A DNA stretch of 64,000 nucleotides from Bacteroidia bacterium. Its GTDB lineage: Bacteria; Bacteroidota; Bacteroidia; Chitinophagales; JAUHXS01. Positions 29,641-32,943 of this stretch are shown piece after piece. Position 1 is the first letter of the stretch, and the number at the start of each line of letters is the position of its first letter. The notes under the pieces are model-generated. The model did not search any database. It was given only the letters and a program-made list of their open reading frames with translations, and was not told the origin of the DNA. The position numbers were made by a program, and so were the translations under genes. The stretch spans positions 62,001 to 126,000 of the forward strand of contig JAUHXS010000008.1 of NCBI GenBank assembly GCA_030426955.1, given 5' to 3'.

Positions 29641-29794
29641 CATATGAAAAATAGAAATATATCAACAAGTAAAGGCATTCCTTGGGAGGTAGTTTATCAT
29701 GAGGAATATGAAGTGAGATTGACCTAATAGCAGAGAAATGGAGATAAAATCAAAGAAAAGCAGAAAATATATCGAAAACTTATTAAATAAGTGA
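29641..29794 (+). pseudogene. GIY-YIG endonuclease remnant upstream of the tRNA-Met copies
   Basis: The plus strand encodes NISTSKGIPWEVVYHEEYEV, then stops, then REMEIKSKKSRKYIENLLNK before a TGA at 29792. This is the C-terminal two thirds of the domain encoded intact at 29921-30166. The N-terminal strands are gone and internal stops and an indel break the frame. Its last 50 nt are almost identical to the intact gene. Confidence 0.85.
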
Positions 29795-29817
29795 TCCCTT
29801 TAGGGCCCATAGCTCAG
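29741..29817 (+). repeat. Tandem-duplication repeat, copy 1 (GIY-YIG end plus tRNA 5' end)
   Basis: These 77 nt match 30113-30189 with four substitutions and no gaps. The unit covers the last ~54 nt of the GIY-YIG frame, the 8-nt spacer GATCCCTTTAG region, and the first 15 nt of the tRNA with anticodon CAT. Confidence 0.9.
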
Positions 29818-29916
29818 CTCCGATACGACAAAATTTCTAATTTTAATCGTATCGAGAGTTCTCGGAGTTTTTTCAAAATTGAAAATTTTGGAAACTTCGG
29901 AATTGGTTAGAGCAGT
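29803..29916 (+). pseudogene. Broken 5' copy of tRNA-Met/Ile2 carrying an 85-nt insert
   Basis: GGGCCCATAGCTCAG (29803-29817) and TTGGTTAGAGCAGT (29903-29916) together make the first 29 nt of the tRNA at 30175-30248, unchanged. Between them are 85 foreign nt (29818-29902) rich in self-complementary arms: CGATACGA / TCGTATCG, CTCCGA / TCGGAG and CAAAATT / AATTTTG. The copy ends in the anticodon stem, 4 nt before the ATG of the GIY-YIG gene. Confidence 0.88.
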
Positions 29917-29920
29917 TTTC

Positions 29921-30166
29921 ATGAAATACTTTACTTATATCTTAAAAAGTACATATAGAGGGCAATTCTATATAGGAAGCACACAAAACCTGAAGGCTCG
30001 AATCATTAAACATAATTCTGGTCAAAATAAATCAACCAAGGAGGGTATTCCTTGGGTACTAGTTTACCATGAGGAATACGAAACGAGATCTGACGCCTAC
30101 AGAAGAGAAAAAGAGATTAAATCGAAGAAAAGCAGAAAATATATCGAAAACTTATTAAATTCGTGA
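29921..30166 (+). CDS. Small GIY-YIG endonuclease-domain protein
   Basis: An 81-residue single-domain protein. The ATG at 29921 gives MKYFTYILKSTYRGQFYIG, where TYIL and FYIG are the GIY and YIG strands; an in-frame extension to 29879 would read through tRNA sequence and is rejected. Arg in LKARIIKHNSG and Glu in RREKEIKSKKS fit the catalytic and metal-binding positions. It is complete and may be active. It lies between a broken and a complete copy of the same tRNA, starting 4 nt after the first and ending 8 nt before the second. Cutting specificity unknown. Confidence 0.85.
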   Translation: MKYFTYILKSTYRGQFYIGSTQNLKARIIKHNSGQNKSTKEGIPWVLVYHEEYETRSDAYRREKEIKSKKSRKYIENLLNS

Positions 30167-30189
30167 TCCCTTTAGGGCCCATAGCTCAG
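30113..30189 (+). repeat. Tandem-duplication repeat, copy 2
   Basis: Second copy of the 77-nt unit at 29741-29817 (four differences). The high identity points to a recent duplication of the whole GIY-YIG + tRNA unit. Confidence 0.9.
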
Positions 30190-30248
30190 TTGGTTAGAGC
30201 AGTGGACTCATAATCCATTGGTCGCAGGTTCAAGTCCTGCTGGGCCCA
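30175..30248 (+). tRNA. tRNA with anticodon CAT (Met elongator or Ile2)
   Basis: Complete cloverleaf: acceptor GGGCCCA / TGGGCCC, D arm GCTC...GAGC, anticodon stem GTGGA / TCCAT around CTCATAA, T arm GCAGG-TTCAAGT-CCTGC, discriminator A. The T-arm and variable-loop sequence is closer to the tRNA-Ile2 that carries lysidine than to initiator Met, but elongator Met cannot be excluded. Confidence 0.93.
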
Positions 30249-30555
30249 CTTTAGTATGTACTTCTGCACGTTTCAGTAACCCTCTATACCCCTTTTTCGC
30301 ACCTTTTTTAAAGCTCGTAATCACTGACACGCTTGAGTAAGTGTACAAAACCGTGACCGATTTCATGGCTGATTGACAAAGAGGCACCTAAGTGAAAACA
30401 TAATGGTTCAGATGGCCTAAATATGAAAACAAACTAGCAGTCGCAAAGTTAAATATCAGATTTAGTATGTCAATTTGTCGGCTTTTTGGATCTAAAAAAC
30501 AGTTTTTGTCTTAACAATTACCTTTGGCACGATTTATGTATATGTTAAACAAATT
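30249..30555. other. Non-coding stretch between the CAT-anticodon tRNA and the RNA candidate
   Basis: No coding frame with family resemblance. Mixed composition with several T-runs (for example CCCCTTTTTCG near 30290, possibly the tRNA terminator without a clear stem). A promoter for the downstream RNA would be expected near 30515-30545, where TTTGGCA and TATATGTT occur, but the spacing does not match the consensus. Confidence 0.4.
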
Positions 30556-30859
30556 AAAGTCGGGTCAAGACTGGTGGATACGTTTTATGTAAAGTACACA
30601 TTAGTGTCCCACGCGCAGATTTTGGCTGACGTGTGAAGAGAGATTCCAATTATACAAATCTGGAACCATATGTTTACAACCTGTATGGCTAGAAGTATAA
30701 TAGGAACTAACTTAAGTTCGGTTTCTGTTGATGCTGTTATAATTGATGGCATAAGCAAAGTTACAAACTTTATTCTATCAATGAGTGGCGTTGTGTATTG
30801 TAAAAACAAGAAGCAACTTCAAGATTGTACCCATCAATAGGTTAGCCACGACCGACTTT
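30556..30859 (+). ncRNA. Structured RNA candidate upstream of a reverse transcriptase
   Basis: About 304 nt whose ends pair: AAAGTCGG-G-TC (30556-30566) with GACCGACTTT (30850-30859), a 10-bp stem with one bulge, followed by a T-rich run. Nested inside are GTGGC / GCCAC (30785-30789 with 30845-30849), CACGCG / CGTGTG (30610-30615 with 30630-30635), AAAGT / ACTTT (30757-30771) and GAACT / AGTTC near 30710. No protein frame fits. Known defence reverse transcriptases (for example DRT2 and DRT9) have a structured template RNA in exactly this place. Pairings were found by eye; folding energy and conservation were not tested. Confidence 0.5.
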
Positions 30860-30872
30860 AATTTTTTTCATT

Positions 30873-31562
30873 ATGGAAAACGAATGGCTTAAATTCAAAA
30901 AATACCCCCATATTGGAAAGCCACTGACAAAGAAAAAAGACAGTGGATGGGTTAAGCGCTTTGTTGCAAATCCAGATAAAATTGCCAATCACAAGTTCGT
31001 TCCACTACTTCATAGAAGTATAAGTCAAAGAAAGTACAGACCTGCAAAAGATGCACCTAAAAATATAAGTGGGAAAAGACAACGCTCCGTGAGTGATAAG
31101 AAAAAGCGACATATTTATTATCCCTCACACTTGGATTCTGTTATTTATGCTTACTACAGTCATCTATTAATCGAAAAATATGAAGAATATCTAAATGAAA
31201 AACCGTATGGTTCTGTAGCTGTAGCATATAGAAAGATACCTATTGAAAATGGTCGCAGCGGAAATAAATCTAACGTCGAATTTGCTTTTGAGGCTTTAGA
31301 TTTTATAGAAAATAATAAGGATAGAAAGCTTTCAATAATCGTTGCTGACGTGACTTCCTTTTTTGATAACTTGGATCACTGGTTATTGCATCAGCAATGG
31401 AAAAGAGTTCTCAATGTAAATAACTTGCCAGATGACCATTATGCAGTGTTTAAAAACCTTATTGGCAAGCGATATGTCAATGAAAACGAATTGTTTAACA
31501 GGTTTCAAAATAAGCTTATAGTTGAACGCTATAAGCCACATTGTCAGTCTCCCATAAAATAG
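30873..31562 (+). pseudogene. Truncated reverse transcriptase (RNA-directed DNA polymerase)
   Basis: The 229-residue frame is the N-terminal half of a reverse transcriptase. After a basic head (YPHIGKPLTKKKDSGWVKRF) come RKYRPAKD, KKKRHIYYPSHLDSVIYAYY (fingers) and the palm motif A IIVADVTSFFDNLDH with the first catalytic Asp. It stops after RYKPHCQSPIK with no YxDD motif, thumb or C-terminal part. The last seven codons and the stop come from an insertion-sequence end that begins at 31542. The head is unlike group II intron or retron enzymes and more like the UG/abortive-infection group, but the class is not certain. Probably inactive. Confidence 0.82.
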
Positions 31563-31645
31563 GACAGTATAAAATTACACAAATTCATGTTTTTTTAAGT
31601 ATTGAATAGGTGCAATATTATTTAAGCTGTGATAGATAATAACAC
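31542..31645 (-). mobile_element. IS3-type insertion sequence remnant (one end only)
   Basis: The end begins TGTCAGTCTCCCATAAAATA and continues GGACAGT, in the style of IS3-family inverted repeats. On the minus strand the adjacent frame reads YHSLNNIAPIQYLKKHEFV then stop (31575), like the C-terminus of an IS3 OrfB transposase with its last integrase-core helix. Nothing of the element remains beyond about 31645, where the promoter region of the toxin-antitoxin pair starts. The insertion truncated the reverse transcriptase. Confidence 0.65.
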
Positions 31646-31711: not shown

Positions 31712-32005
31712 TTGAGAATAATACCATTTAAGGCGATTAAAGATTATGTAAAAGAAAATGCCAATACTAGAGTAGCACTAGGTGATTGGTATAGTAGGAC
31801 AAAGCGTGCAGACTGGCATAGCCTTATGGATATAAAAAGAGACTTTAATAGTGTTGATTATGTTGGAAATGATAGATATGTATTTAATATAAAAGGCAAT
31901 CATTATAGGCTAGTAGCCATAATAGTTTTTGCCTCACAAAAGGTTTACATACGATTTATAGGTAGCCATAAAGAATATGATAAAATAAAAGCTAATAAAA
32001 TTTAG
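31712..32005 (+). CDS. higB: HigB-family mRNA interferase toxin
   Basis: A 97-residue protein of the HigB (RelE-fold) toxin family. Diagnostic stretches are FKAIKDYVKENANTRVALGDWYSRTKRADW, split here as AIKDYVKENAN and ALGDWYSRTKRADWHSLMDI, then YVFNIKGNHYRLVAIIVF and the end VYIRFIGSHKEYDKI. Family members cut ribosome-bound mRNA. The start is TTG at 31712, since no ATG fits before the conserved RIIPF strand. The antitoxin gene follows after 4 nt, in the toxin-first order typical of higBA. Confidence 0.9.
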   Translation: MRIIPFKAIKDYVKENANTRVALGDWYSRTKRADWHSLMDIKRDFNSVDYVGNDRYVFNIKGNHYRLVAIIVFASQKVYIRFIGSHKEYDKIKANKI

Positions 32006-32009
32006 AATA

Positions 32010-32372
32010 ATGAAAGCAATACAAAACGAAGCAGCTTATCAAAAGGCAATTGTACGTATTGAAGAGTTATTATTAATTGTTGATAATAATACACCTAAGA
32101 CTAATAAATATTTCATCGAGTTAGATGAATTGTCCGACATAGTAGCGAACTATGAGGAGGAGCATTATCCTGTTGACGTGCCTACACTTATTGAGGTTAT
32201 TAGGCTAAGAATGTTTGAAATGAATCTAAAACAAAAGGATTTAGCAGAATTGCTAGGTACATCAGCAACAAGGGTGAGCGAATACTTAAAAGGTAAACGG
32301 CAAATAACAATGGACGTAGCCAAAGCTTTGTATAAAAAGTTAAATATAGCACCAGAACTTATATTGAGTTAA
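32010..32372 (+). CDS. higA: HigA-family antitoxin with helix-turn-helix domain
   Basis: A 120-residue antitoxin partner. The N-terminal half (residues 1-65, DELSDIVANYEEEHYPVD) is the toxin-facing helical part, the C-terminal half is an XRE helix-turn-helix (MNLKQKDLAELLGTSATRVSEYLKG) followed by ALYKKLNIAPELIL. It should neutralise HigB and repress the operon promoter at 31661-31692. Both genes are intact, so the module is likely functional and would help retain this stretch of DNA. Confidence 0.92.
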   Translation: MKAIQNEAAYQKAIVRIEELLLIVDNNTPKTNKYFIELDELSDIVANYEEEHYPVDVPTLIEVIRLRMFEMNLKQKDLAELLGTSATRVSEYLKGKRQITMDVAKALYKKLNIAPELILS

Positions 32373-32613: not shown

Positions 32614-32943
32614 ATGAAAAACAAGAAAATCAATACATACTCATTAGACCAAGTAACCGATGAAATCATTGGCAAGAAAGGTACACTAGAAAGGGAACAA
32701 TTTGAGTACGACTTAAAGCTAGATGTCTTAGGAGAAATGATAAAAAGCACAAGGTTGGAGAGAAACTTAACCCAAGAACAACTAGGCGAATTGATAGGCG
32801 TTCAAAAAGCCCAAATATCAAAGCTAGAACGCAATGCCAATAACGTTACCTTATCAACGATTCTAAAAGTATTTAAGGCATTAAAAGCTAAAATTAAATT
32901 TAAGATAGAGTTGAATAACAACCAACGCTTAGAGGTAGCCTAA
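32614..32943 (+). CDS. Orphan XRE-family regulator (antitoxin-like)
   Basis: A 109-residue protein with a helix-turn-helix (RLERNLTQEQLGELIGVQKA, QISKLERN) preceded by a short N-terminal arm and followed by LKVFKALKAKIKFKIEL. This layout is that of HigA/HipB-like antitoxins that follow a RelE/Gp49-like toxin gene, but no toxin gene precedes it; the palindromic element ends 24 nt upstream. AGGAGG at 32602-32607 is an unusually good Shine-Dalgarno for this genome, which hints at foreign origin. May act as a stand-alone repressor or be a leftover antitoxin. Confidence 0.8.
   Translation: MKNKKINTYSLDQVTDEIIGKKGTLEREQFEYDLKLDVLGEMIKSTRLERNLTQEQLGELIGVQKAQISKLERNANNVTLSTILKVFKALKAKIKFKIELNNNQRLEVA

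Follow-up and report, generated by a model that had tools for sequence, protein, structure and literature searches.

The closest known system to the locus described here is the anti-phage system DRT2 of Klebsiella pneumoniae (Tang et al. 2024, PMC11100668; Wilkinson et al. 2024, PMC12039810; PDB 9C0I), and it is in these two papers that the neo mechanism was published. In the first neo preprint (PMC11100668), Neo annotation was described as "more challenging" in divergent DRT2 clades and alternative mechanisms were proposed; whether these clades make Neo was left open. In the main texts of the DRT2 papers searched, no treatment of Bacteroidota systems and their ncRNA was found. Here, a stretch of 64,000 nucleotides from a Bacteroidia bacterium (the window) was analysed, in which a truncated reverse transcriptase (RT) lies downstream of a structured RNA. 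With a probability of roughly 0.86, the locus represents the decayed DRT2 of a Bacteroidota host, the intact relatives of which would use the published neo mechanism with other borders and another promoter.

The identity of the enzyme and the point at which it breaks off are given by two features:

30873..31541, + strand: N-terminal part of a Drt2 reverse transcriptase, about 222 codons, with YxDD and thumb missing
31542..31625, - strand: IS-end remnant (TGTCAGTCTCCCATAAAATAGGACA...), which cuts off the RT before YxDD and adds about 7 foreign codons

The open reading frame at 30873-31562 encodes 229 amino acids, and homology stops near residue 222. It can be observed that PADLOC assigns the protein to Drt2 at E = 4e-68 (two Drt2 models), with the next families at 1e-5 or worse and Drt9 at 0.002. 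The NCBIfam model for Drt2, NF041746, matches at E = 1.8e-51 over model positions 1-188 of 416, a match that is partial and under the whole-protein cut-off because half of the RT is missing. The PDB sequences matched belong to Drt2 only (9C0I and relatives, E = 5e-26), and in a quick tree the window RT is located in clade A with a support of 99. Identity to the full-length Drt2 of two Bacteroidota genomes, both with RYSDD, reaches 69-75%. In the full-length relatives examined, YxDD is situated near residue 320 (for example RYSDD in P0001). By all four routes, PADLOC, NCBIfam, PDB and tree, the window RT is Drt2 (UG2). The original prediction had read the pair as possibly a DRT-like system of unassigned class, a reading which is now scarcely credible. 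The one observation in its favour, the failure of Pfam RVT to match, arises from the truncation of the RT, whereas in PADLOC any other UG family falls short of Drt2 by tens of orders of magnitude, E values of about 1e-128 or better are reached by full-length relatives against Drt2, and the window RT is placed inside the Drt2 tree. A structured RNA upstream of an RT would also be expected if the RNA formed the 5' portion of a group II intron and the RT were its maturase, but the chance of this is negligible: the group II RT model gave at best 14.7 bits, where the cut-off is 300, an Rfam search of the locus returned no intron match (nor a matching DRT2 RNA model), and the RNA, of about 300 nt, has a DRT2-like architecture. 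That the RT belongs to neither retrons nor group II introns had been anticipated correctly.

The truncation itself, likewise expected, is explained by what follows residue 222 or so. The bases after the end of homology (TGTCAGTCTCCCATAAAATAGGACAG...) recur, whole or partial, at four other sites in the same genome, and are interpreted as an insertion-sequence end, IS3-like as judged by eye; no annotation for this remnant was found in the plasmid collection. No other Drt2 was found in the host genome (97% complete, 23 contigs). Since the catalytic half is gone and no second Drt2 is present, the window copy should be dead, a remnant of a DRT2 system that would be unable to polymerise DNA. A second case in which the enzyme is broken and the RNA intact is probably provided by the clade A DRT2 on the 25-kb plasmid p1 of Marivirga sp. 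(L111), where the template RNA is complete and the RT, matched in five pieces, is probably interrupted. Directly after the IS remnant, a HigB/HigA-like toxin-antitoxin pair is located at 31712-32372 (HigB_toxin, 8e-32), with a HipB-like HTH ORF further downstream at 32614-32943. On the other side of the RNA, a module of a GIY-YIG ORF and tRNA-Met(CAT) is duplicated (29780-29915 and 30155-30249). In the first copy the tRNA is interrupted after GGGCCCATAGCTCAG (29803-29817) by a palindromic insert of about 85 nt; in the second (30175-30249) it is complete. The GIY-YIG ORF at 29879-30166 (Pfam, 9e-15) is preceded by the remnant of another.

Upstream of the RT, a structured element of about 304 nt is present at 30556-30859. 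The region 30550-30872 folds with -91 kcal/mol, whereas shuffled sequences average -68 (z -4.4; none of 100 shuffles equally good). Its ends pair, and the 3' arm stops just short of the ATG at 30873, as had been predicted for an RNA with paired ends and several hairpins. For comparison, a Drt2 scan of 84,980 species genomes yielded 79 Drt2 loci. The same RNA was found upstream in all 24 Bacteroidota relatives whose identity to the reference Drt2 is 59% or more, and these, together with the window locus, form the set of 25 sequences used below. Viral contigs scanned with the RT gave no relatives, and phage records contained distant Drt2 only, at about 30% identity. A structure consisting of P1, P2, two 5' hairpins, a tower-like hairpin and a pseudoknot of 5 bp was drawn by hand and scored on the 25 sequences:

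30551..30563, + strand: outer stem P1, 5' arm, paired with 30852-30864
30573..30582, + strand: stem P2, 5' arm, paired with 30826-30835; double changes in 5 of 10 pairs
30596..30607, + strand: 5' hairpin ACAC/GUGU, from the comparative structure
30610..30635, + strand: 5' hairpin CACGCGCAG/CUGACGUG directly before the template, 5' handle-like, from the comparative structure
30785..30789, + strand: pseudoknot arm GUGGC, 100% paired with GCCAC at 30845-30849
30790..30817, + strand: tower-like hairpin GUUGU...GCAAC, from the comparative structure
30826..30835, + strand: stem P2, 3' arm, paired with 30573-30582
30845..30849, + strand: pseudoknot 3' arm GCCAC, paired with GUGGC at 30785-30789
30852..30864, + strand: outer stem P1, 3' arm, paired with 30551-30563

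In this structure 97.9% of cells are paired and 14 pairs are changed on both sides, a result equalled in none of 500 shuffles; on four of five measures it beats every shuffle. When the partner was shifted by one to three columns, pairing fell to 20-42%. The tower-like hairpin displays double changes from GUUGC/GCAAC to the CUAC/GUAG type in seven sequences, and in L026 both arms of the pseudoknot have changed together (compensatory GUAGC/GCUAC). The pseudoknot is placed as is G155-C159/G250-C254 in Klebsiella DRT2 (PMC12596737). The RNA thus covaries among homologues, which bears out the original prediction of a DRT-type template RNA beside the RT. Overall, that prediction identified the type of the RNA/RT pair and erred in its class; the neo frame, the borders, the junction promoter and the IS remnant had escaped it.

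The RNA is most variable in the stretch that separates the conserved 5' hairpin from the 3' scaffold, which is likewise conserved. Borders were searched by a grid over both positions in the 25 sequences, identical border words being required, and the best pair defines the following features:

30643..30771, + strand: 129-nt template unit of the ncRNA, equal to 43 codons, as delimited by the top-scoring pair of borders in the grid
30643..30646, + strand: border (jump) motif 1, AUUC, with which the template begins
30772..30775, + strand: border (jump) motif 2, AUUC, immediately after the 3' end of the template
30643..30771, - strand: neo frame (repeat unit KFVTLLMPSIITASTETELKLVPIILLAIQVVNIWFQICIIGI), stop-free with units head to tail, open in 25 of 25

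With ATTC at 30643 and at 30772, the border 4-mers are identical in 24 of 25 sequences and the joined units are open in every one; in the single exception, L025, both borders have changed alike to TTTC (UUUC). Other clade A borders (a one-base shift, CAAT/CAAT) were rejected for a lower score or an identical junction. The unit is 129 nt long in 18 sequences and 132-141 nt in the rest of the clade A set. The Marivirga plasmid copy, kept out of the alignment, agrees in every respect with the template model. A detector of units in single sequences found one in 22 of 25 clade A loci and in 11 of 12 clade B1 loci, compared with 0-2% of shuffles; when applied to 318 real tiles of 400 nt from the window, 15 passed a loose threshold, and the only score of 10/10 was this element. 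The window unit is without the ATG at codon 11 that most close relatives have, its sole ATG being located 3 nt past the -7 box.

That box belongs to a predicted promoter, the parts of which are found at the two ends of the template:

30655..30658, - strand: -33 box TTTG; TTTG or CTTG in 25 of 25, with a spacing of 20 to the -7 box
30756..30763, - strand: -7 box TAACTTTG (TAnnTTTG), found in 25 of 25 with unchanged spacing, in part as variants that differ by one or two letters

TTTG and TAnnTTTG are the -33 and -7 boxes of Bacteroidota housekeeping promoters. When units are joined, TTTG-N20-TAnnTTT(G/A) is rebuilt at the junction, and a promoter of Bacteroidota type would thereby form across it. 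On the chromosome the two boxes stand at opposite template ends in the wrong order, so that the promoter can exist only once the identical borders have been joined. A different element, possibly concerned with expression of the RNA itself, precedes the 5' arm:

30525..30539, + strand: TGGCACGATTTATGT, a conserved element located about 24 nt upstream of the 5' arm of the RNA and resembling a sigma-54 -24/-12 promoter (GG-N10-G)

At about 24 nt from the RNA, TGGnAYRnTTTRTG is kept in 18 of 18 close relatives, with flanks that are not conserved; these relatives include L015-L029, L034 and L035, in which the positions are homologous. Position -12 is not C. The host encodes RpoN, and the element was not seen in clade B. 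Clade A RNA and RT may be a case of sigma-54 control, a suggestion offered as a lead only.

Whether the unit is read as protein is the point at which two further explanations must be weighed. It is conceivable, if improbable, that in divergent clades the RNA is copied into repeats which act without encoding protein; Tang et al. (PMC11100668) did not find Neo easy to annotate there, and Neo amino acids are weakly conserved. Indeed, dN/dS in the neo frame is about 0.75, not below that of the other frames, and no strong purifying selection on amino acids is displayed. Constraint on the Neo sequence thus appears weak; in the Klebsiella DRT2 paper, too, most of the conserved Neo residues were ascribed to conservation at the nucleotide level. 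The case for neo therefore rests on stops, length, borders and promoter. The variable stretch is a multiple of three in length in 25 of 25 sequences, and the same reverse-complement frame is open in all of them, whereas indels in the flanking segments outside the template are not limited to multiples of three. When substitutions were placed randomly on an open consensus, about 25 stops were expected in the 17 representatives less than 85% identical; none was observed, and none of 5000 simulations did as well. Strong hydrophobicity is confined to the neo frame (mean GRAVY +1.1, compared with -0.7 and -0.4), and the promoter boxes keep a fixed spacing. All of this argues against repeats without a coding function. 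The hydrophobic product and a linear antisense ORF of 74 aa at 30585-30809 might also suggest an ordinary small gene overlapping the RNA, for example of a type I toxin-like kind, read from linear DNA. This is quite implausible, because on linear DNA the promoter boxes are misordered, and the identity of the borders, including the double change in L025, would be left unexplained. A neo frame read from joined units remains the preferred reading.

The same analysis was extended to other DRT2 clades, with unsupervised border grids for clades B and C that gave one best pair each. In clade B the border is ATACC (AUACC in RNA) and all 22 loci are open; in clade C it is AATT (AAUU in RNA), with seven of eight open. 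The eighth, L067 of Flavobacterium tistrianum, has a template insertion of 5 nt which extends the unit to 167 nt and breaks the neo frame; its RT is still open, making it a natural frame-broken allele. The spacing of the junction promoter is 20 in B1 and C, as in clade A. In subclade B2 the junction carries TTGACA-N17-TATATT, a better fit than the Bacteroidota consensus, and a perfect TTGACA-N17-TATAAT (12/12) was found in the gammaproteobacterial Psychrobacter L061, Moraxella L082 and Photobacterium L108, in none of 100 shuffles each. Photobacterium L108 shares 53% identity with Klebsiella Drt2 over the N-terminal part of the latter. The motif groups A, B1, B2 and C each form one clade in the quick RT tree (support 99-100). 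There, L061 (Psychrobacter immobilis) nests, on a long branch, among Bacteroidota clade C relatives, and a promoter switch after transfer is possible. For several of the divergent loci from Bacteroidota, analysis one by one revealed no clear unit. ACA borders tried on gammaproteobacterial and other plasmid loci gave no convincing unit, and the perfect sigma-70 junctions came from an ACA-free search with other borders; there is therefore no locus with an exact ACA pair as a positive control here. We consider it somewhat probable that neo synthesis is general across divergent DRT2 clades, with a jump motif of its own for each RT clade (AUUC, AUACC, AAUU), with a junction promoter rewritten to suit the host phylum, Psychrobacter L061 included, and with clade A RNA and RT perhaps under sigma-54 control.

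For clade A, the process can be outlined by extension of the published Klebsiella work. In intact relatives, among them the type strains of Flagellimonas pacifica (DSM 25885), Cellulophaga baltica and Aureivirga marina, Drt2 would bind the upstream RNA and copy the template unit (129-141 nt). At each round it would jump back from the 5' AUUC to the 3' AUUC, giving head-to-tail cDNA. After second-strand synthesis, the double-stranded concatemer would carry the promoter (TTTG-N20-TAnnTTTG) across the junction only; its transcription would read an endless hydrophobic ORF, Neo, and the toxic product would arrest the infected cell, phage being the presumed trigger. In the host genome analysed here, IS insertion and deletion would have removed the catalytic half of the enzyme and left the template RNA complete, with no other Drt2 in the genome able to copy it.

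The sequences point to candidate neo templates in at least three clades of Bacteroidota, where the jump motifs differ from ACA and the promoters suit the clades' own RNA polymerase. These divergent clades appear to fit the known neo mechanism with other borders and promoters, and not an alternative one; it can be inferred that a search by the border words and promoter consensus of the Klebsiella clade would miss them. If this is true, the ACA motif is not the rule, nature supplies evidence that a junction promoter has to function in its host, and type strains with exact predicted junctions are on offer for tests.

In comparison with known systems, the locus has much in common with Klebsiella DRT2: the RT family, the ncRNA directly upstream, a template between identical short motifs, a pseudoknot of 5 bp linking the post-template segment to the 3' part, a stop-free antisense unit in multiples of three, a predicted junction-only promoter and a hydrophobic Neo. 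The differences lie in the details. The borders are AUUC in clade A, and AUACC or AAUU in its sister clades, in contrast to ACA (ACA-1/ACA-2) in Klebsiella; the promoter is TTTG-N20-TAnnTTTG in place of TTGACA-N17-TATAAT; and the unit measures 129-141 nt in clade A and up to 156-162 nt in others, compared with 111-129 nt. The RNA of the window type is longer than that of Klebsiella, with a covarying 5'-3' closing stem, and, unlike Klebsiella DRT2, the window copy has lost the catalytic half of its RT. DRT9 is a system of ncRNA-templated homopolymer synthesis. It resembles the present locus in having an RT with an upstream ncRNA template, but differs in that the template of the window would be a coding unit and not a homopolymer tract, and in the poor Drt9 score of the window RT.
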